Source: Hymenobacter cellulosilyticus (lineage in GTDB: Bacteria; Bacteroidota; Bacteroidia; Cytophagales; Hymenobacteraceae). Taken from it: a DNA stretch of 64,000 nt. Position numbers and translations under genes: made by a program. The DNA lies in assembly GCF_022919215.1 (NCBI RefSeq), contig NZ_CP095046.1:4330501-4394500 (forward strand), read 5' to 3'. Position 1 is the first letter of the stretch; every line of letters begins with the position of its first letter. Shown here piece after piece: positions 203-58,576 of the stretch. Under the pieces are notes generated by a model, which worked only from the letters and a program-made list of their open reading frames with translations, did not search any database and had not been told where the DNA came from.

Positions 203-519
203 GGCGGCCGGGGGCCGTTGCAAGTTGCCCCTGCGTTGAATACCGCTTCGGAAGTACTTACGTAGCCCTCGGGTTCACAAACAAAATCGAAACTCGGGCA
301 AGGCACTCTTTCATAGGCACTTCGTTCTACGCCTCCGCCGGTATCCTATCTAGGTTGGGCAGCCGCTCTAGTTGGTGCTCTTTCCTGATACTATTTTTTC
401 GATATGCCGTGGTACTATGGATGTGTGACTAATTGCCGCTCTTGTAACCCTATTAGCACCCAGTCAGTAAAGAGAGACACAACCTTTGTTTCTACTACAC
501 CTAATTTACTGACCCACTC
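203..519. other. Intergenic stretch with no recognised gene
   Basis: About 317 bases between the flavoprotein tail and the DUF2383 gene. No frame here looks protein-coding, and I see no RNA gene or strong hairpin. The bases AACCTTTG near 482-489 resemble a Bacteroidota -7 box but lack the leading T and have no partner -33 TTG at the right distance, so I do not call a promoter. Confidence 0.5.
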
Positions 520-975
520 ATGGAAGCCAAAGCAACCCAAGCCCTGCTCAACGAACTGCTCGAAACTCTGAAAGACGGCGAAAAAGGCTATTCTACCGCT
601 ACTGTCGATGTAGAAGATCATGACCTGAAGCAGGTATTTAAGAAATACGCCGTGCAGCGCGACGGTTTCCTGACCGAGCTGGAAGACCAGATGCACCAGC
701 TCAACCTGAAAGCCGATGAGGAAAGCTCTATTACGGGCACCGTACACCGCGCCTTCATCAACCTGAAAGCCGCCATTACCAGCAAAAGCCGGGAAAGCAT
801 TCTGAATGAGTGCGAGCGGGGTGAAGACTACGCCGTAAAAGCCTACCAGACGGCTCTGAAAGCCGAGGGACTGCCCGGTCAGCTGAAGACCATCATCGAA
901 AAGCAATACCAGGGCATCCAGGAAGCTCACAACGAAATTCGCTCCCTGCGCGACGCGGCTTCGGCCTCGAAGTAA
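520..975 (+). CDS. PA2169-type four-helix-bundle protein (DUF2383)
   Basis: A 151-residue soluble, charged, almost wholly alpha-helical protein. The N-terminal part (residues about 1-115) has the DUF2383/PA2169 pattern: a helix with LLNELLETLKDGEKGY, then VKKYAxQRDGFLTEL-like and RAFINLKAAI segments, and a late ECERGED element that carries ferritin-like acidic residues. The family adopts a ferritin-like fold and often goes with stress responses, but its biochemical role is not established. There is no signal peptide or membrane segment. The gene stands alone and ends 22 bases before a strong terminator it shares with the convergent helicase gene. Confidence 0.85.
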   Translation: MEAKATQALLNELLETLKDGEKGYSTATVDVEDHDLKQVFKKYAVQRDGFLTELEDQMHQLNLKADEESSITGTVHRAFINLKAAITSKSRESILNECERGEDYAVKAYQTALKAEGLPGQLKTIIEKQYQGIQEAHNEIRSLRDAASASK

Positions 976-47375: not shown

Positions 47376-50030
47376 CTACTCCTGCTCTTCCTCGGCCGAA
47401 ATAGCCGCGGGGCCTTCGGGCAGGTTCAGGAGCGGCCCGAGCAGCAGGGCGTTGGCAAACAGCCGGGACGTGCCGTGCCAGTAGTGGCGGAAGTTGGGGT
47501 CATCGGCGAAAAGCACGACGCGGCCCGAACCTACCTTGCTCACTACCACGGCCGCCGAGCTGCTGATTTGCTTCAGGTTGCCCTTCGACACGTAGCCGCT
47601 TACCAGGGGCTGGGCCGTGTACTGGGCCACGGTGGCGTAGGGGTTTCGGCTAGGCTTGAGAAAGGTGGTGCCGTTGCGGAAAACGTAGAGCCGGCGGCTG
47701 GTCAAACCGAAGCCGATGGGGTTAGTAATGTCGATGTCGGCCGAGTAGATGGAGCCGGCAATGGCCCGGGTGCCCTCCTGCTCCTGCTGCACGAAATCGG
47801 CGCGGCCAGGAGCACCCGCTTTGCCTTTCGCGCTGGTCGTGGCGGTGGTATCGGCCCAGCCGCCGTTGGCCGGAATCAGCAGTTTCTCCTTGACGATGCC
47901 CTGCCTGATGGCCCACTCCGAGGCGTTTTTCAGGGTAATGAGCGTACCGCCATCCTGCACCCACTGCCGCAGCTTGGCCACAGCAGCCTTATCCAGAGCC
48001 GAGTACGAGCCGCCCACCAGCACAATGCTGGAGTAGCGTCCCAGCGGGGCCCGGCCGAAGTTGCCGACCTCAATCCGGCTCAAGGGTACACCCAGCTGCT
48101 GGCTGGCTACAAACCACGCCTCGCCTACTTCCGAGGAGTTGGTGCCCTGCCCCACCAGAATGGCCGCCTTGGTTTCGGGGGCCGTGCGCACGTTGTTGGA
48201 ACCCAGGTCAATACCCTTAGCGCTGAAGCCCGTGCCGACGCTGGTAAAGGTGACCTGGTTCTGGCGGCTGATGCGGCTCACAATCTGAAACACTGAATCG
48301 GCGGGCAGCTTCTGGGCCGCTACGGGAATGACGAGCGTGCCGTAGCCGAAGTCGGTGGAGCTTTGAGCAGTGCCGGCGCTGAAGGGTTTAAAGCTGACTT
48401 TGGCTACTAAGCCGGCCCGCTGCAACGCGGTGAGGCTGCGCGGGGCATTGTAGTCGGACCAGGACAGCAGGTAGGCGTAGCTGCTTTGGCCCCCGCGCAC
48501 GGTGCCGTTCAGGGTTTTGACGGCCTGCACCGGGGCACCTTGTACTAAGCTGGTATTCTTTTGCTTGGCCACCGCCAGGCCGTAGGCGTGGGCCTGGCTC
48601 CAGCCGGTTACGTCGTAGAACACACTGTCGTGAAAGGTGGTCAGCTCCTCAAACAGGGAGTTGACGATGCGGTACTGGGGCTGGGCGGTGGGTACCACGT
48701 AGGCCTTGCCCTTTTCAAATTGCTGCTTGTCGAGCGTGACGGTTTTGCCCAGCTCGTGCACCTCGATTTTGTGTTGGAGCAGCAGGTTTAGAAACTTGTT
48801 GGTCAGCGTTTCATCCTGGGCGTTGCCGAAGACGTAGGCCTTGGTCGGAAACTTGCGGGCGTCGGTGAGGGCCGAGGCAAAAAACTCGCGCTGGTGCTTC
48901 AGATACAGCTCTTTTTCCTCTACGGCGCCCCGCACCGTAGCCAGGCCGGTAGCCACGTGGTTGCGGATGGTAAAGGGGAACGTAACCACGCCGTTGGTGC
49001 CTTCCTGGGCCAGGCCCCGGGAGCTGCCTACTTCGAAGGTGATGCCCACGCCGCCCTGAAAATCGGGATAAGTCGAGCCGTAGATGGGTGACAGGTTGTC
49101 GAACTGCTCCTTGGTCCAGTACAAAGAGCCCAGGTTGTCCAGAGCCTTGGCAAAGTACTTGGCCAGATGCACGTTGAGCACTTCGTAGGTAGCCCGGGGA
49201 ATCAGGTCGTTTTCGGTACTGAAGGGCTTGGACGGCTCGAAATAGTACGTGCCGTTGGTGCCCATTTCGTGAAAGTCTATCATCACGTTGGGGTACCACT
49301 CGTGGAAAAACGCCATCCGGGCCCGGCTTTCGGGCTGGGTCAGCGCCAGCCAGTCGCGGTTCAAATCGGTGTAGAAGTGGTTGGTGCGGCCCCCCGGCCA
49401 GGCTTCGGTGTGTTCCCGATCGAGCGGGTCCGTGGGGTTAGGCCACGACTTATTCTAGTCAAACCAGTGTGAGGCCCGGTCGCGCCCGTCGGGGTTTTCC
49501 AGCGGGTCAATGGTTATAACCGATTGTTCCAGCCACTGCTGGGTTTCGGGGCTGGTGGAGGCCGTCAGGTAGTAAGCCAGCAGCAGGGCCGCTTCCGACG
49601 AGGAGCTTTCGTTGCCATGCACGCCGAAGTTGAGGCTGACTACCACCGGCAGCTTGCGGTAGTCGGGCGCCGGCTGCGCGGGGTCGACCAGGGCCCGGCG
49701 GGCCTGCTGCAAGCCGGCCAGGTTTTGCTGGTTCTGGGGCGCGGTGATGGTGGCTACTACCTGAGGCCGCTCCTCGAAGGTCGTCCCGATGGTGCGCAGA
49801 CTCACCCGGTCCGACACCCGGTCCAGCTCCCGCAGGTAGGCCACAATCTGGTCGGTGCGGGTGTAGTGCGTGCCGATGGCGTAGCCCAGAAACTGCTCGG
49901 GCGTCGGGATTTTAGAGTCGAAGGTGCTAGCCTGGGCGGCGGGGAAAAAGTAGCTGTTTTGAGCCGCGGCGGGTTGGGCTAGTGTCAAGCCCAGGGAAAG
50001 CAGGGCAGCGGAAAAGGATGATTTCAACAT
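47376..50030 (-). pseudogene. M14 zinc carboxypeptidase with C-terminal amidotransferase-like domain, interrupted by an in-frame amber codon
   Basis: An 884-codon frame with one TAG at 49455-49457 (codon 192); both sides are in the same frame and are homologous parts of one protein. Before the stop: a signal peptide (FSAALLSLGLTLAQPAAAQ) and the first M14 zinc motif (NFGVHGNESSSSEA, with NPDGRDR following). After it: HTEAWPGGRTNHFYTDLNRDW, the third zinc ligand in MIDFHEMG, the presumed catalytic Glu in ITFEVGSSRG, then a GATase1-like domain (ILVGQG, VGGSYSALDKAAVAKLRQWVQDGG). Homologues usually have a sense codon here; CAG to TAG would suffice. As read, the product would lack its active site. 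Third gene after susC and susD, so it probably trims peptides for that importer. Confidence 0.82.
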
Positions 50031-50370: not shown

Positions 50371-51729
50371 TTAGTACCCCGGGTTCTGCTCCAGGCTCCG
50401 GTCGGCGACCAGGTCGTTGAAGGGAATCGGGAAGAGCCAGCGGCGCTGGTCGGTGACGCCGAGCACGGTGGCGGCGCGGCCGGTGCGCACGAGGTCAAAC
50501 CACCGGTCGGCTTCGAAGGCGAATTCCACGCGCCGCTCGTTTTCGATGGCCAGCAACAGAGCTTCGGCGGTGGCGGCTTTGCTGGGCTCTACCCCGGCGC
50601 GGGCGCGTACGGCGTTCAGGTCGGCCAGGGCATCGGTGAGCTTGTTTTGCTTGGCGCGGGCTTCGGCCCGGATGAGGTACTGCTCGGCCAGGCGCAGCAC
50701 ATAGCTCGGGTCGTCGCGCTGGGCCGAGCGGCTGTAGAGGTTGCCGTAGGTCACGCTGCTGCCGTTGATGGTAGTAGAAGCCAGCAGGGCCGAGCGGCTG
50801 CCGCCGGTAGCCGGGTCGTTGAGCAGGGTAATGGCAGCGGGCAGGGGCTGGAAGTTGAACTGTCCGCCCAGGGCGCTGGGAAACCAGTTGTTCCACATGC
50901 TATTGGCGTCGGAGTTGCTGAAGGTCAGCTCAAACACCGATTCCTGGCTCAGGAAAGGGGCCGTGGAAATTGCGCGGTAGGGCGTCACGAGCCGGTAGTT
51001 GCTGCTGCTGCTAATCACCTGGGTGGCGTAGGTTTCGGCCTCGCTCCACTGCTGGCGGTAGAGGTGCAGGCGGGCCCGCAGGGCCCGGGCAGCGGCTTTA
51101 ACGGCGCGGTTGCGGGTAGCAGTTTCGGGCAAGAGGCTCTCGGCCTGGATCAGGTCGGCCAGCACCTGCTCGTAGGTCTGGGCCAGGGTGCTGCGGCCCT
51201 GGCCGGCGCCGTTTTCCTTGGAGCGCGTGGGCGTCAGCACCAATGGTACTCCGCCCCAGCCCCGGCCCAGGTCGAAGTAGACCAGCGCCCGCAGAAAATA
51301 AGCCTCGCCGAGCAGCTGGTTTTTCTCGGCGGCGGGCAGCAGCGGGTCGTTGATGCCGGGCAGGGCGGCCAGCACGTTGTTGGCCCCGTTCACAGCCTGA
51401 TACATCTGGGTCCAGGCCTCGGTAATCAGCACGTTGTCGGCGCTGAGCTGGTTTTGGTCGATTTGCAGAAACTGGTTGAGCGTGCCGTTGAAGCGCACAT
51501 TGTCGCCGGGCAGAAAGCCCAGCACCGGCCAGTTGAGCTGGTAGTAAGCCTGCACCCGGTCATACACGCCGATGGTGGCCGAGCGGGCACTACCGGCATC
51601 GGTTATGGCCTTGTCATCAGCGAGTTGCTGCACCGGCGTGGGCTCCAGCAAATCATTGCAGGCCGTGATGCTGAGCGTAGTAGCGCCGAGCCAAGCCGCA
51701 AAAAACAGGTGGTGTATCGTGGATTTCAT
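50371..51729 (-). CDS. susD: SusD/RagB-family outer-membrane lipoprotein
   Basis: A 452-residue surface lipoprotein that covers its SusC partner and binds the imported substrate. The signal peptide ends at a lipobox (LSITAC, Cys 24), after which NDLLEPTPVQQL is the usual SusD opening. TPR-like helices follow (AYFLRALVYFDLGRGWGGVPLVL; YEQVLADLIQAESLL; AAARALRARLHLYRQQWSEAETYATQVI), and the conserved ending LIRAEARA-LADLNAVRARAG, ERRVEFAFEADRWFDLVRTG, LFPIP, LEQNPGY is intact. I chose ATG 51729; the frame runs further upstream into repeat DNA. Substrate class cannot be read from sequence, but the M14 peptidase downstream favours peptides. Confidence 0.93.
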   Translation of the reverse strand: MKSTIHHLFFAAWLGATTLSITACNDLLEPTPVQQLADDKAITDAGSARSATIGVYDRVQAYYQLNWPVLGFLPGDNVRFNGTLNQFLQIDQNQLSADNVLITEAWTQMYQAVNGANNVLAALPGINDPLLPAAEKNQLLGEAYFLRALVYFDLGRGWGGVPLVLTPTRSKENGAGQGRSTLAQTYEQVLADLIQAESLLPETATRNRAVKAAARALRARLHLYRQQWSEAETYATQVISSSSNYRLVTPYRAISTAPFLSQESVFELTFSNSDANSMWNNWFPSALGGQFNFQPLPAAITLLNDPATGGSRSALLASTTINGSSVTYGNLYSRSAQRDDPSYVLRLAEQYLIRAEARAKQNKLTDALADLNAVRARAGVEPSKAATAEALLLAIENERRVEFAFEADRWFDLVRTGRAATVLGVTDQRRWLFPIPFNDLVADRSLEQNPGY

Positions 51730-51759
51730 GGAAGTTAAAATCGTTGTGGGATAATGGCC

Positions 51760-51957
51760 GTCATGTCGAGCAAAGCGAGATATCTCGCGTGCTGATGTTG
51801 CCAAACTAACTGTCATGCTGAGCTTGTCGAAGCATCTCTCCCGCCATAGTAATTCTGATTACTACTGCACGCGAGATGTCTCCCGCGGGTCGACATGACG
51901 TTCTTTATGGCGCAGTCGAAGCGGCAGAGATGCTTCGACTGCGCTCAGCATGACGTT
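51760..51957. repeat. Interleaved inverted repeats between susC and susD (copy 5)
   Basis: Arm A (51760-51792) pairs imperfectly with A' (51867-51899), and arm B (51812-51839) pairs with B' (51927-51955). Because the order is A-B-A'-B', the two pairs interlock rather than nest. B carries the same inner AGTAAT/ATTACT hairpin as the 47271 element. The structure fills the gap between the susC stop and susD start within one operon. Confidence 0.8.
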
Positions 51958-51970
51958 CTGGTTGTCTTTT

Positions 51971-54900
51971 CTACAAGCCGACCGTGATGCCCACCTGGAA
52001 AGTGCGGGGCTGGGGCACGGTGGCCCAGTCGAAGTTTTTGGTGTTGCTCACCCCGCTCTGGGAGTTGACCTCGGGGTCGAGGCCGGAGTAAGGCGTGAGG
52101 GTGAACAGGTTAGCGGCCTGCACGTAGACGCGCACCGAGTTCAGGCGGGCTTTGGCCAGGGTTTCCTTCGGGATGGTGTAGCCCAGCGTCAGGGTGCGCA
52201 GGCGCAGGAAGGAGCCGTCTTCGAGGTACCGGTCACTGAGGTTTTGCACCACCCCGCCGTAGTTGTTGCTGGCCGCATTGGTCGTCAGGCGCGGAATGTC
52301 GGTCTGGTCGCCGGGGCTCTGCCACCGGTCGAGCTGCTCGCGCAGGTAGCCGATGTTGCTCTGGGTACCGCCGTGCACGAGGAAGAAGCGGTTCATGTTC
52401 ATGATTTTGGCGCCCTGCTCGAAGTTGAGCGAGAAGCCAAAATCCACTCCCTTATAAGTAACCGAGTTGGTGAGGCCGCCGAAGTAGGCGGGCCAGGCGT
52501 TGCCCACCAACTGCCGGTCGACCACAGTGAGCTGCCCGTCGCCGTTCACGTCCTCGTACTGGGCGTCGCCGCTTTCGGGGTTCACGCCAGTTTGGTGGTA
52601 GAGCCAGAACGAGTAGAGCGGGGCACCTTCCTCGAGGCGGAAAATGTCGCGGGAGCCGGTGGTAATGGGCGCGGCCAGCTTCTGAATCTTGTTCACGTTG
52701 CGGGCCAAGTTCACCGTCGTGCTCCACTGCAGGGGGCCTTTGGTCAGCCAGTTCACCGTGGCCTGGGCCTCGAAACCCTTGTTGCTGACGGCCCCGTAGT
52801 TTTCAACGACTGAGGCGAAGCCGGTTTTGCGCGGCACCGGCACGTTCAGCAATAAACCCGAGGTGTACTTGTCGTAGTAGTTCAGCTCCAGCAGCACCCG
52901 GTTGTCGAGCACGGCCGCGTCGAGGCCCACGTTCCACTGCCGGGTGCTTTCCCAGCTCAGGTTGGGGTTGGCCAGCTGCAGCGGGGCCGTGCCGGGCAAA
53001 TCGAGGTAGTTGGCTCCACCCTGCACCAGGCCCAGGGCGGCAAAGTCGCTGATGCCGGCCTGGTTACCAGTTTTGCCGATACTGGCCCGGAGCTTAAGCT
53101 CCTGGAACACGTTGAGGTTCTGGATAAAGCCTTCCTCGCCCAGGCGCCAGCCCAGCCCTACGGCCGGGAAGTAACCCCAGCGGTTGTCGCGCCCGAAGCG
53201 CGACGAGGCGTCGGCCCGCACGCTCACGTCGGCGGTGTAGCGGCTCTTATAGGAGTAGGTGGCCTTGCCAAAGAACGACACCAGCCCGGCCTGGGAGCGG
53301 GACGAGGAACCAGTTTGGGTAGCAGCCGAGGCAATGGTGGTCAGGTCGTTGCCGGGAAACTGCTGCCCCAGCAAGCTGGTCCGCTGGAAGGTGTTGCGCT
53401 GCAACGTATTGCCCACCAACGCCTGCAGGGAGTGGTTTTCGCCCAGCTCGACATTGTAGTTCAGGGTCTGTTCGTTGAGCAGGGTAATGTCGCGCGAGAG
53501 GTAGGACGAAGCCGTGCCCCGGGGCTGGCCGGCCAGAATCAGGGTGTTGTTGAAGTTGTTTTCGTACATGTCGTTGAAGTCGATGCTCCAACTGCTGCGC
53601 AACGTCAGGTTTTTGAGGAAACGGTACTCGCCATAGACGTTGGAAATGACCCGGGTGCCTACCGCGTCGTTGTTGAGGTGGTCAATCAGGGCCTGGTGGT
53701 TGTCGAAGGAGCCGTACTTGGCGTAGGAGCCGTCGGGGTTGTAGACCGGCAGGTTGGTGCGCGGAAACAGGGCCGAGTTGATGACGCCCACCGGGTTGTT
53801 GTCGTTGCTGCTTACGTTGCGGTGGGTGCGGGCCAGGGCCGTGCTGGTGCCGATGCGCAGCTTGTCGGTGACGGAGTTGTCGAGGTTGACCCGCAGGGAA
53901 AACCGGTCGAAGGCGCTGGGCCGGGCAATAGACTCCTGCTGGAAATAGCCCGCCCCGATGTAGAACTGGGTTTTATCCGAGCCTCCCGCGGCCGACAGCT
54001 CGTAGCTCTGGGTCTGGGCCGTGCGAAACACGTCGGAGAGCCGGTCGTAGGTGGGCTGCTCCTCCGGCAGGCCCCGCCCACCCGAGGCTACCGAGCGGTA
54101 GGGTAACTGGCTGGGGTTACCCCCGTCGTTCAAAAACCGCTCGTTTTCCAGCTCCGCCAGTTCGGGTCCAGTTACCAAATCGTACTGCTTGGCCGCCTTC
54201 GACCAGCCGTGGTAGGTGTTGAAGGTGATGCGGGTTTTGTCGCCGGCCTTGCCCCGCTTGGTCTGAATCAAGACCACCCCGTTGGCTCCACGGGAGCCGT
54301 AAATGGCCGTGGCGTTGGCGTCCTTCAGAATCTCGATGCTCTCAATGTCCTGCGGGTTCAAATCGGCCAGCGGGTTCGACGATACCTGGTTACCCAGGCC
54401 CGTAGCAATCAGGTTGGTGTTGTTGATAAACACCCCGTCGACTACGTAGAGCGGGTCGTTGCTGGCATTCACCGAGTTGCTGCCCCGGATGCGGATGAAA
54501 ATACCGCCGCCCGGCACACCCGAGTTGGCCGACACCTGCACGCCGGGCGCCTTGCCCTGCAAGAGCTGGTCGGGGCTGGCGGCCGGAATGTCCTTCAGCG
54601 CGTCGCCTTTCACGGAGTTGATGGCGCTGGTCAGGGTCTTGCGGTTCTGCTCACTGTAGCCCGTCACGACTACTTCTGAAAGCTGCTTGACGTCGGCTTT
54701 CAACCGGACGCGCACCGCGCCGCCCGTAGCCGCCACGGTCTGGCTTTCGTAGCCTACGGCGCTAACGACCAGCGTATTGCTACCCGCTGGCAAGTTCAGC
54801 GAGAATTGTCCGCTGGGGTCGGTGGAGGCGCCTACCGTAGTGCCTTTGACCACAACGGTAACGCCCGGCAAGGGGCTGCCGTCGGCGGCATCGGTAATGG

Positions 54901-55021
54901 TACCGGTAATGGGTTGCGGGGCAGTTTGAACTGACGGGGCGGTTTGGGCCCAGGCCGGACTAGCTACGCACACGATGCCAGCTAATGCGGCCGGCACCGC
55001 CAAAAGAGTAGAGGATTTCAT
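51971..55021 (-). CDS. susC: SusC/RagA-family TonB-dependent outer-membrane transporter
   Basis: A 1016-residue intact transporter. Signal peptide (residues 1-25, ending AWA-QTAP), carboxypeptidase-D regulatory-like domain (about 38-110: ITGTITDAADGSPLPGVTVVVKGT), TonB box region (LSEVVVTGYSEQNRKTLTSAI), plug with the SusC signature (QLLQGKAPGVQVSANSGVPG, IRIRGSNSVNASNDPLYVVDGV, ILKDANATAIYGSRGANGVVLI), then a 22-strand barrel ending in a short hydrophobic strand (FQVGITVGL). It imports a bound ligand using TonB energy. Its mRNA starts with a SAM-I riboswitch 570 bases upstream, so expression is expected to rise when S-adenosylmethionine is scarce. This points to a sulfur amino acid, sulfur-containing peptide or related ligand; the inference rests on regulation, not on the transporter sequence. 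Confidence 0.94.
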   Translation of the reverse strand: MKSSTLLAVPAALAGIVCVASPAWAQTAPSVQTAPQPITGTITDAADGSPLPGVTVVVKGTTVGASTDPSGQFSLNLPAGSNTLVVSAVGYESQTVAATGGAVRVRLKADVKQLSEVVVTGYSEQNRKTLTSAINSVKGDALKDIPAASPDQLLQGKAPGVQVSANSGVPGGGIFIRIRGSNSVNASNDPLYVVDGVFINNTNLIATGLGNQVSSNPLADLNPQDIESIEILKDANATAIYGSRGANGVVLIQTKRGKAGDKTRITFNTYHGWSKAAKQYDLVTGPELAELENERFLNDGGNPSQLPYRSVASGGRGLPEEQPTYDRLSDVFRTAQTQSYELSAAGGSDKTQFYIGAGYFQQESIARPSAFDRFSLRVNLDNSVTDKLRIGTSTALARTHRNVSSNDNNPVGVINSALFPRTNLPVYNPDGSYAKYGSFDNHQALIDHLNNDAVGTRVISNVYGEYRFLKNLTLRSSWSIDFNDMYENNFNNTLILAGQPRGTASSYLSRDITLLNEQTLNYNVELGENHSLQALVGNTLQRNTFQRTSLLGQQFPGNDLTTIASAATQTGSSSRSQAGLVSFFGKATYSYKSRYTADVSVRADASSRFGRDNRWGYFPAVGLGWRLGEEGFIQNLNVFQELKLRASIGKTGNQAGISDFAALGLVQGGANYLDLPGTAPLQLANPNLSWESTRQWNVGLDAAVLDNRVLLELNYYDKYTSGLLLNVPVPRKTGFASVVENYGAVSNKGFEAQATVNWLTKGPLQWSTTVNLARNVNKIQKLAAPITTGSRDIFRLEEGAPLYSFWLYHQTGVNPESGDAQYEDVNGDGQLTVVDRQLVGNAWPAYFGGLTNSVTYKGVDFGFSLNFEQGAKIMNMNRFFLVHGGTQSNIGYLREQLDRWQSPGDQTDIPRLTTNAASNNYGGVVQNLSDRYLEDGSFLRLRTLTLGYTIPKETLAKARLNSVRVYVQAANLFTLTPYSGLDPEVNSQSGVSNTKNFDWATVPQPRTFQVGITVGL

Positions 55022-55589
55022 AGAAAAAGTTGGCTACCTGTGGAGCAAAAGCTCCCGGCCAATCCTTCCCTGTTTTGACTTTTCTTCACCTGTAGTTACA
55101 GCGAGGCAGGCAGTTACCTACTAAGCTCAGCGTGCCAGAAAGGCCGCAGCTTACCCAGCGTAACGGTGCCAGCAGCGCCGAACGGGAAGAAGAAAATCTG
55201 AAAACAGAGGCTGCTCTGCTCCGGCCCCGACTCGTGCACAGCCGGGCCTGATTCAGCCACCAAGGCAGCCGAAATAGGATTATAAGCAGGGAAAGCTGAT
55301 CGGCCAGAAAGAAAATCTGACGACTTCGGCCGCCGAACCGCCGGAAACGGCCGCGGCCTGAACCCGCCCGGCGCAAACGTGGCCCGGCGAGGGTGCAGCA
55401 AGCCAACGTGCTAAGTCAGCCGGCTACGTGAGCAAACAAGAAGGAAAACAAGGAAGTACCTGATCCTTAGCAGCTCTAGCCCAACGCGGGCATACAGACC
55501 GCGCAACACAGCATACCACAACAGCCAAATACTTGGGCGGCGCGGGGTGCGAGATGAGCGGAGGAGCTGGTGAAGGCTTTCACGGCGTT
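55022..55589 (-). other. Long leader between riboswitch aptamer and susC
   Basis: About 568 bases that should be transcribed as part of the susC mRNA. Directly after the aptamer only a weak GTGAA/TTCAC hairpin without a U-tract is seen, so no classical terminator-type expression platform is evident. A 95-codon frame (55114-55401, minus) exists, but its composition (Arg/Pro/Phe-rich, no domain) does not convince me. What this leader does is unknown. Confidence 0.55.
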
Positions 55590-55688
55590 GTTGTTTTTAT
55601 ATGGTCAGGACTTGGCACCGTTCCGGATGTTCCGGGGTTGTCGGCGTTTCATAGAGCCTGTCTCTCCACGCCTCTGTATAAAAACAAT
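55590..55688 (-). promoter_or_regulatory. SAM-I (S-box) riboswitch aptamer upstream of susC
   Basis: Read on the minus strand, an 11-bp P1 helix (TTGTTTTTATA with TATAAAAACAA) closes an aptamer with the S-box core: AGAGGCGTGGAGAGACAGG, CTCTATGAAACGCCGACAACC, a P3 stem CCGG-AACAT-CCGG, and GGTGCCAAGTCC in P4. Compared with the consensus (GAGGGAC...GGCCC, GATGAAGCC, GCAACC, GGTGCCAAxTCC), the P2b pair GGG/CCC is replaced by GAG/CUC, a compensatory change. It starts about 22 bases after the expected transcription start of the promoter at 55717-55749. SAM-I riboswitches usually turn expression off when SAM is abundant. Confidence 0.93.
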
Positions 55689-55716
55689 CCTTTGATGGGA
55701 TCAAGAATTGGTGTTC

Positions 55717-55749
55717 CAAAGGTAAAGCGGCGAAATTCAGAAACGCAAA
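55717..55749 (-). promoter_or_regulatory. Bacteroidota-type promoter of the riboswitch-susC transcript
   Basis: On the minus strand: TTTG (-33), 21 bases, TACCTTTG (-7), the full Bacteroidota consensus. The start would fall near 55710, just before the SAM-I aptamer, which supports both calls. Confidence 0.8.
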
Positions 55750-55811
55750 TATTATTTTTCGTCTGAGTAAAATCCTGGGTTCCTACCGCCCAGCTCAACC
55801 CGGACAAAAAC

Positions 55812-55841: not shown

Positions 55842-56029
55842 CCGCCATCTGGGGCGGTTGTCATCTTGAAAAATCGGGTGATTCCGTTCGCTCCCTTTCC
55901 TGCTTTTACCCCGCATGCCTGCCATTAAGTTGTTCGAAAACCGCTGTTGTTGTTGCCCCGCAACTACCTGACTTCCGCGTCGTGGGGGCCGTGTGCGCCG
56001 CCCGTTTTCTGCAGCTTTTCGCTTTTTGC

Positions 56030-57346
56030 ATGACTTCCACTTCCGTTGCCGCCCCGCGGCCCGACCTGGTTCGTGGCATCCGCCGCTGGGACTTTGTGGC
56101 CCTTATTGTCAACATCACCATCGGCGCCGGCATCCTGGGTTTGCCGGCCAAGATTTACGCCCTGGTGGGCGCCTATAGCCTGGTAGCCTACGGGGCCGCC
56201 GCCCTCATCGTGACCCTGATAATTCTGTGCTTTGCCGAAGTCAGCAGCCGCTTCAGCGGGGCCGGCGGGCCCTATCTCTACGCCCGGGAAGCCTTCGGGC
56301 CCCTGGTTGGCTTTGAGGTCGGCTGGCTGTTGTGGGTGTCGCGCTTGGCCAGTTTTGCGGCCCTCTGCAACCTGTTCGTGGATTACGCCGCCTACTTCTG
56401 GCCCGCCGCGGGCGCTGGTCTGGGCCGCGGCTTGCTCATGGCAGGGTTGATTACGGCCCTGACCCTACTGAACCTGGTGGGCGTGCGGCGGGCTTCGGCG
56501 GCCAATAACGTGTTTACCGTCAGCAAAGTCCTGCTGCTCGTTCTGTTCACCGTGGTGGGCTTGTTTTTCGTGGACTGGCGGGCGTTTTCCTTTGCCGTGG
56601 CGCCCACCTACACCGGGTTTTCAAGCGCCGTGCTACTGCTGATTTTCACCTTTTCGGGCTTCGACGTGGCCGCCATTCCGGCCGCCGAAATCCAGCAACC
56701 CCAGCGCAACGTGCCCTTTGCGTTGTTCACGGCCATTGCCACCGTGGCCGTGCTGTTTCTGCTGGTCCAGGTGGTCTGCATCGGTACCTTGCCCGATCTG
56801 GCTTCGGCCGAGCGGCCCCTGGCCAGTGCCACCCAGCAGTTTCTGGGCCCTATTGGGGCGGCTTTTGTAGCCGCGGCAGCCATGCTGACGGCCCTGGGTA
56901 CGCTCAATGCCCTGATGCTCACCGGGCCCCGCCTGCTGTTTGCCTTGGCCGAGCAGAAGCAGATTCCGGCCTTTTTCGGCGCCACTCACCCGCGCTTCCG
57001 CACGCCCTACGTGGCTATTCTAGTGTCGGCGGTGCTGAAGCTAGCACTGGCCATTTCCGGCACGTTTATCTACGCCCTGACGCTGAGCACCATAATTCGC
57101 CTAGCTTACTTTGCTTTGACCTGCGCGGCGTTGCCGGTCTTGCGCCGCCGTCACCCGGAGCGGCCGGCGCCCTTTCGGGTATGGGGCGGAGCGGCAGTGG
57201 CGGCTTTGTGCGTAGGGCTCTGTTTGTGGCTTTTGTCGAACAGCGCGGCCCATGAAGCCCGCGACGTGGCCATCGTGGCCGGCGCCGGTCTGGTCTTATA
57301 TGTTCTTTACAACCAGCGCCGTTCCCCTGCCCCACGGCAGCTGTAG
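56030..57346 (+). CDS. APC-superfamily amino-acid permease
   Basis: A 438-residue inner-membrane transporter with about 12 helices. The APC substrate-binding pattern is in helix 1 (IVNITIGAGILGLPAKIYALVG) and the family block in helix 6 (LLLIFTFSGFDVAAIPAAEIQQPQRNVPFALF), followed by LNALMLTGPRLLFALAEQKQIPAFFG. It moves amino acids or polyamines with protons or by exchange; the exact substrate is not evident. I chose the ATG at 56030 (MTSTSVAAPRPDLVRGIRRWD); the open frame from 55982 adds an unconserved lead. It is divergent from the SAM-riboswitch-controlled susC and followed by an SsuD-like gene, so a role in sulfur amino acid uptake is possible. Confidence 0.88.
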   Translation: MTSTSVAAPRPDLVRGIRRWDFVALIVNITIGAGILGLPAKIYALVGAYSLVAYGAAALIVTLIILCFAEVSSRFSGAGGPYLYAREAFGPLVGFEVGWLLWVSRLASFAALCNLFVDYAAYFWPAAGAGLGRGLLMAGLITALTLLNLVGVRRASAANNVFTVSKVLLLVLFTVVGLFFVDWRAFSFAVAPTYTGFSSAVLLLIFTFSGFDVAAIPAAEIQQPQRNVPFALFTAIATVAVLFLLVQVVCIGTLPDLASAERPLASATQQFLGPIGAAFVAAAAMLTALGTLNALMLTGPRLLFALAEQKQIPAFFGATHPRFRTPYVAILVSAVLKLALAISGTFIYALTLSTIIRLAYFALTCAALPVLRRRHPERPAPFRVWGGAAVAALCVGLCLWLLSNSAAHEARDVAIVAGAGLVLYVLYNQRRSPAPRQL

Positions 57347-57409
57347 TTTGGCTGCTTCGTCAACTCTTCTTCTGTCCTTATCCGGTTTTGCCGGCTCTGA
57401 TTCTTCCCG

Positions 57410-58576
<1,167 letters not shown>

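Follow-up and report, generated by a model that had tools for sequence, protein, structure and literature searches.

The susC/susD operon in the window, by which we mean the whole 64-kb stretch of DNA analysed here, is preceded by a SAM-I aptamer and, directly behind it, by a small leader ORF (uORF) that carries a cluster of Cys and Met codons near its end. We consider it fairly probable that the two form a composite leader in which two sensors act in series, first the SAM-I aptamer and then the Cys/Met leader ORF, with an output that would most likely be of the Rho type. The aptamer, the spacing from P1 to the start codon, the uORF, its codon enrichment and its conservation can be read directly from the DNA.

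In a cmscan of the 64-kb window, a single match of any kind reached the gathering threshold. This match, to RF00162 at 55594-55684 on the minus strand, is full-length (model positions 1-108) and scored 67.8 bits (E 1.2e-13; gathering score 44.4). The original prediction of a full S-box aptamer on the minus strand is thus borne out, and the covariance-model check that it called for was passed. P1 has the predicted 11 bp once the outer three pairs are included (55687-55677 with 55601-55591), i.e. all 11 bases of its 5' strand, TTGTTTTTATA (55677-55687), pair with its 3' strand, TATAAAAACAA (55591-55601), the end of which lies 7 bases upstream of the uORF start codon. GGTGCCAA and GAG/CTC in P2b were also found as described; by contrast, the core is TATGAA and not GATGAA as had been stated. 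Upstream of the aptamer, a candidate promoter is present on the minus strand at 55717-55749, i.e. TTTG (55749-55746), N21 and TACCTTTG (55724-55717). Promoters of the form TTTG/TAnnTTTG are used by this phylum. Among 10 aligned Hymenobacter leaders, 8 keep TTTG and all 10 keep TAC(A/C)TTT. A sigma-70 scan of the window leader gave no match. The proposed promoter is plausible.

Adjacent genes with both importer models above cut-off follow on the minus strand. susC (51971-55021) encodes a SusC/RagA TonB-linked outer membrane protein (TIGR04056, 844.5 bits), and susD (50371-51816) a SusD/RagB lipoprotein (PF07980 and PF14322 above cut-off, NCBIfam below cut-off only). Further along this strand, a gene for an M14 zinc-carboxypeptidase (47376-50030; Pfam) is broken into the ORFs 49455-50030 and 47376-49364 by a single in-frame stop. 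Behind three other S-boxes of this genome (L001, L002 and L005), the genes for the permease, the PAPS reductase and the PLP enzyme look fragmented, with short ORFs and partial Pfam matches; thus, the assembly may carry indel errors, and the in-frame stop in the M14 gene may be one of them. A related M14 gene lies directly after an S-box with a Cys uORF at another locus, L055. Divergent from the window S-box are genes for an amino-acid permease and a luciferase-like monooxygenase (55982-58576, plus strand), and one of the other S-box operons of the genome (L009) contains a further luciferase-like monooxygenase gene.

By its SusC, the window genome is a Hymenobacter close to H. metallicola. We compared 51 SusC relatives among named genomes. 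An S-box was present upstream of susC in all 28 Hymenobacter orthologues (80-97% identity), in none of the three relatives at 69-73% identity (two Spirosoma and one Chryseolinea), and in one of the 20 relatives at 41-46% identity; this lone S-box (L376) is of the GAT type defined below and lacks a Cys cluster. Similarly, in 40 other genomes of the genus, an S-box lies ahead of susC in 9/9 orthologues of at least 81% identity. The synteny that the original prediction had asked about therefore recurs, and the SAM-I aptamer that it placed at the head of the SusC/SusD operon is conserved among these Hymenobacter orthologues. Among five SusC matches at 48-50% identity from the genus search, the examined flank contained an S-box in L319, L320 and L321 and not in L317 and L318. 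In L321, two divergent back-to-back S-boxes (281-373, minus strand, and 740-852, plus strand), each with a Cys-rich uORF, lie upstream of a SusC relative at 48% identity.

The original prediction was right that the aptamer heads the operon but overlooked the Cys-rich uORF that lies at 55476-55583 within the 572 bases between aptamer and susC. This ORF (MKAFTSSSAHLAPRAAQVFGCCGMLCCAVCMPALG, minus strand) opens with GTG at 55583, 7 bases past the 11-bp P1, has 35 codons, and ends with TAG. Its five Cys codons fall in a Cys/Met cluster at codons 21-31 (C C G M L C C A V C M; 55491-55523, minus strand), four positions of which (Cys21, Cys22, Cys30 and Met31) are kept in 20-21 of 22 compared sequences. 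A uORF with at least three Cys, starting at +6 to +10, was found in 28/28 Hymenobacter susC leaders, and in two of these (L346 and L347) the CC pair is replaced by CY.

The genome contains six S-boxes in all, and they lie upstream of sulfur and methionine genes, as is typical of RF00162. Five of the six share a Cys-rich ORF of 30-54 residues with a start codon at +7 to +10, i.e. 7-10 bases past the aptamer. Besides susC, the genes downstream of these ORFs are an amino-acid permease (peptide end GCCCCC), PAPS-reductase-type genes of sulfate assimilation (CCGMMCCRCC), a RimK-like gene with a luciferase-like monooxygenase (GCCC), and a Cys/Met PLP enzyme with an acyltransferase and homoserine dehydrogenase (hom) (CCWTTCCCCC). 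The sixth S-box precedes methionine synthase and MTHFR, has a different P1, and is not followed by a Cys-rich ORF. A pattern of four Cys plus stop, which does not catch the uORFs of the susC, PAPS-reductase and RimK types, gave 23 matches in this genome compared with 7 for a control pattern; 10 of the 23 end in a stop, and among nine that were translated, two are uORFs behind S-boxes and seven are other open frames.

To describe the distribution of the uORF, we read 136 of the 138 S-box matches in 41 family genomes, leaving out one match above and one below cut-off. A Cys-cluster uORF was defined as an ORF starting at +2 to +15 with at least 3 Cys in 8 residues, and S-boxes were typed by the P1 3' strand as TATA/AAT or GAT. 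With these types, which were defined after the first loci had been inspected, the Cys-cluster uORF was present at 86/89 TATA/AAT-type compared with 1/47 GAT-type S-boxes, and ATG or GTG at +6 to +12 at 88/89 compared with 3/47. Two of the three TATA/AAT-type exceptions (L138 and L144) have Cys uORFs that fail the 3-in-8 rule, and the third (L145) lacks a uORF. For the rest of the order, where 87 of 91 matches were covered (L202 was dropped because its aptamer end could not be placed), the numbers were 25/51 and 1/36, and the uORF of L221 failed the rule. Many of the 26 TATA/AAT-type S-boxes without a Cys cluster in these other families (e.g. L231, L245 and L258) still have a short ORF in this position. 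Beyond the order, 49 matches were read as an uneven sample (the best 29 plus 20 hand-picked from genomes with several S-boxes), and in these the Cys-cluster uORF was found at 2/4 TATA/AAT-type and 1/45 GAT-type S-boxes and in two families. Finally, among 28 extra loci of the genus, which were the top-scoring ones, the rule identified a Cys cluster in 4/4 of the TATA type and 0/24 of the GAT type. Read from these samples, nearly every TATA/AAT-type S-box of the family carries the Cys uORF, as do about half of those elsewhere in the order.

Two kinds of candidates among the GAT-type loci were rejected. In L013, L017, L020 and L024, at least three Cys occur together with the shared string CCSSDLS, which was taken as platform sequence and not as a Cys run, and the main genes at the place of the uORF in L028 and L172 were taken for upstream frame extensions. 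Downstream of some GAT-type S-boxes (e.g. L042 and L080) lies CTCTTCTGACTTATC or a similar strand that is complementary to the P1 3' strand and looks like a classical competing strand.

The presence of the Cys uORF also varied with the downstream gene, where clusters are named by Pfam matches of single members and each locus is represented by its longest ORF, possibly a shadow frame of the true gene where GC content is high. In the census loci, the uORF was found with 17/19 PAPS reductase, 14/15 permease, 11/11 RimK-like, 5/5 sulfite reductase, 54/79 PLP Cys/Met enzyme and 5/8 SusC/TonB genes (L138 narrowly fails the rule), and with none of the 95 in the metH cluster or the eight in an acyltransferase-like cluster. 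This split by gene is not clean, because GAT-type S-boxes without a uORF also precede PLP enzymes and hom: the 24 such extra loci of the genus comprise 12 with a PLP enzyme, six with another cluster, four with hom and two with metH.

The direct target of P1 is likely the small ORF and not susC, 572 bases away. In 60 of 113 uORF loci, the gap from the end of the P1 pairing to the uORF start has its modal value of 6-7 bases. The passages on initiation in PMC6847099 report that Bacteroidetes mRNAs lack Shine-Dalgarno sites and that in Flavobacterium structure from -20 to +20 tunes initiation; because P1 most often ends 6-7 bases before the uORF start and therefore within this zone, a SAM-stabilised P1 should block the small ORF. 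SAM-I aptamers with a ribosome site in P1 are known (described in part of PMC2258182). L145, the one such TATA-type case in 300 loci, fits P1 gating of initiation: it lacks a uORF, and a PLP-enzyme ORF itself starts at +7, an assignment made by BLAST cluster, as the first 50 residues had no Pfam match. Two points count against the composite leader: at 25/113 uORF loci the Rfam P1 has non-standard pairs at its outer end, and 26 of the 51 TATA/AAT-type S-boxes in other families of the order are without a Cys cluster. Since five of the six S-boxes of the genome share the Cys-rich ORF and the small ORF is the likely target of P1, the tie of the importer to sulfur amino acids is stronger than the original prediction had claimed; that prediction is partly supported and was incomplete in that it missed the second element, and the tie of the window leader probably involves more than one signal.

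We suggest that the leader would work as follows. Sensor 1 would be the SAM-I aptamer, the P1 3' strand of which lies inside the putative translation initiation region of the small ORF; with SAM bound, P1 would hold and the small ORF would not be translated. Sensor 2 would be the Cys (and Met) codon cluster near the end of the small ORF, on which the ribosome would stall when charged tRNA is short. By this AND logic, expression of the operon would require both low SAM and a shortage of sulfur amino acids. In any other state, the leader would turn expression off at a point past the small ORF; the most likely means would be Rho-dependent termination within the pyrimidine-rich leader, and a stalled ribosome would prevent it. 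That SAM is bound, that the small ORF is translated, that ribosomes stall on it, and that AND logic and Rho operate in the leader, we infer from its arrangement.

In the window, the proposed output site is the 454 bases from the uORF stop to the susC start (55022-55475, minus strand). Terminator-like sites are hardly more frequent than in shuffles, both in the window (2 in 54950-55800 compared with 1.5) and in general (21/113 loci compared with 15.4). Therefore, an intrinsic terminator as the general output was rejected, and the loci were not classed as trp-type attenuators, which are marked by an intrinsic terminator/antiterminator past the codon run. Pairing of the P1 3' strand with a downstream competitor gave no signal (-4.1 compared with -4.0 kcal/mol in shuffles for the family and -3.1 compared with -3.3 kcal/mol for the others), and pairing of the Cys run with downstream sequence exceeded shuffles by too little (-18.6 compared with -17.6 for the family and -12.0 compared with -11.1 for the others).

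A different output would be translation attenuation, in which the main gene's start is masked by a hairpin until a ribosome stalls on the Cys cluster and opens it. This has a precedent in that C-terminal Cys-cluster uORFs of mycobacteria are cysteine-responsive attenuators, according to sections of PMC4633059 and PMC13236596, and folding past the uORF stop is above that of shuffles, most in loci outside the family (z -1.7, compared with -0.7 in the family). However, pairing between the Cys run and the main start, which we rejected as a candidate, was hardly above shuffles (0.194 compared with 0.164 in 51 PLP-enzyme loci), and in the window 454 bases separate the uORF stop from susC; we regard this alternative as rather unlikely, though the strongest of those considered. 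When three sets of PLP-enzyme leaders were folded to a consensus, possible hairpins appeared past the stop, with no form common to them.

The output that we tentatively prefer is Rho-dependent termination against which a stalled ribosome protects, as at tna, where the leader ORF would be followed by C-rich, G-poor sequence. It is compatible with the lack of a common fold, because Rho-dependent termination needs no conserved fold. The stretch past the stop in uORF loci is 61% pyrimidine with a C/G ratio of 1.35, compared with 52% and 1.08 in the main gene; where family loci lack a Cys uORF, the leaders reach 55% and 1.39. With the C/G ratio so similar in both kinds of leader, the pyrimidine excess is at most a faint hint of Rho.

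To describe the constraint on the uORF, we compared 22 susC uORFs, i.e. 21 of 117 bases and that of the window, with no gaps allowed. Changes were alike at the three codon positions (3430/3123/3104), and nonsynonymous differences numbered 4695 compared with 674 synonymous ones, a comparison that is a description and not a test because pairs are non-independent, gaps are absent and many positions are saturated. While the body of the peptide drifts, Cys21 (21/22), Cys22 (20/22), Cys30 (21/22) and Met31 (21/22) are kept, and seven closer susC orthologues agree with this pattern. Judged from these alignments, the susC uORFs conserve codons and not a peptide; as Cys codons 21, 22 and 30 are nearly all TGT, the constraint may lie on the RNA rather than on the codons. 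Over all 113 uORFs, the effective number of which is lower because many loci are related, Met beside the Cys cluster was counted 130 times compared with 21.5 expected from shuffled windows, and in the body 33 times compared with 22.7. Cys is encoded by 405 TGT and 218 TGC codons and is the last codon in 73/113. The peptides of different genera are unlike, and the end cluster is their common feature. Thus, the uORF resembles the leader ORF of an attenuator in that it is short and conserved at a fixed start, is enriched in codons for the regulated amino acids, and is loosely constrained over the rest of the peptide.

Cys clusters can bind metals, and the ORF is kept across many genomes, as would be expected if its product were a working small Cys-rich peptide, such as a metal or redox sensor or a signal, and not a leader peptide. 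The drift of the residues outside the cluster, with three codon positions changing alike, and the frequent position of Cys at the very end argue against this, and none of four uORF peptides tried had an NCBIfam match; we consider a working peptide highly improbable. Slightly less probable still is a plain SAM-I riboswitch with the Cys-rich ORF as a chance frame or a by-product of RNA constraint, which must by itself account for the ORF-less loci such as those of the metH cluster, but which is at odds with the fixed start distance, with Cys positions that persist while the rest of the peptide drifts, with the recurrence of the feature in several genera and families whose peptides are unlike, and with a Cys-cluster uORF at 113/144 pooled TATA/AAT-type S-boxes of the three samples, where dinucleotide shuffling gives 2.9%, or 5.1% if the start codon is left in place.

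On balance, we lean towards the composite leader being a lineage-wide RNA logic gate, in which the output of the SAM riboswitch would be initiation of a leader peptide that reads the charging of Cys- and Met-tRNA, so that SAM, Cys and Met would all be tested before sulfur assimilation, Met synthesis and the SusC/SusD importer are expressed, and metH would respond to SAM alone. If so, this would be a natural multi-input gate and would give Bacteroidota, with mRNAs lacking Shine-Dalgarno sites, a route to use a SAM-I switch on translation. Moreover, with the importer in the sulfur regulon, its predicted substrate would be sulfur-bearing or a peptide.

Riboswitches and amino-acid leader peptides are, each alone, textbook devices. 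In the open-access literature, for part of which the best 10-20 entries out of several hundred or more matches were covered, we did not find a SAM-I aptamer and a Cys/Met leader ORF in series. Canestrari 2020 reportedly deals with polycysteine uORFs of mycobacteria. Those described in the sections on them in Shell 2015 (PMC4633059) are, like ours, short ORFs with a C-terminal Cys cluster ahead of sulfur genes; theirs are leaderless, whereas here a SAM aptamer lies upstream and Met stands beside the Cys codons. The uORFC-8-2 motif of Rhodobacterales cysS likewise has tandem Cys codons in a leader ORF but, in the part of PMC8632094 devoted to it, comes with an intrinsic terminator and no riboswitch is named. 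The B12 riboswitches of M. tuberculosis metE and ppe2 share with the leaders described here the combination of riboswitch and uORF, translation of which alters expression, and the ppe2 uORF acts by reinitiation; they differ in the aptamer, and amino-acid codon sensing is not among the features described in the corresponding sections of PMC11260477 and PMC12713380. The window leader shares with other members of RF00162 a full-length match above threshold at the head of sulfur genes; it differs in that P1 abuts a small leader ORF and in that one target is a SusC/SusD operon. Finally, contiguous riboswitches, as outlined in part of PMC12452182, also place two sensors in one leader, but in the leaders described here a translating ribosome, and not an aptamer, would serve as the second of them.
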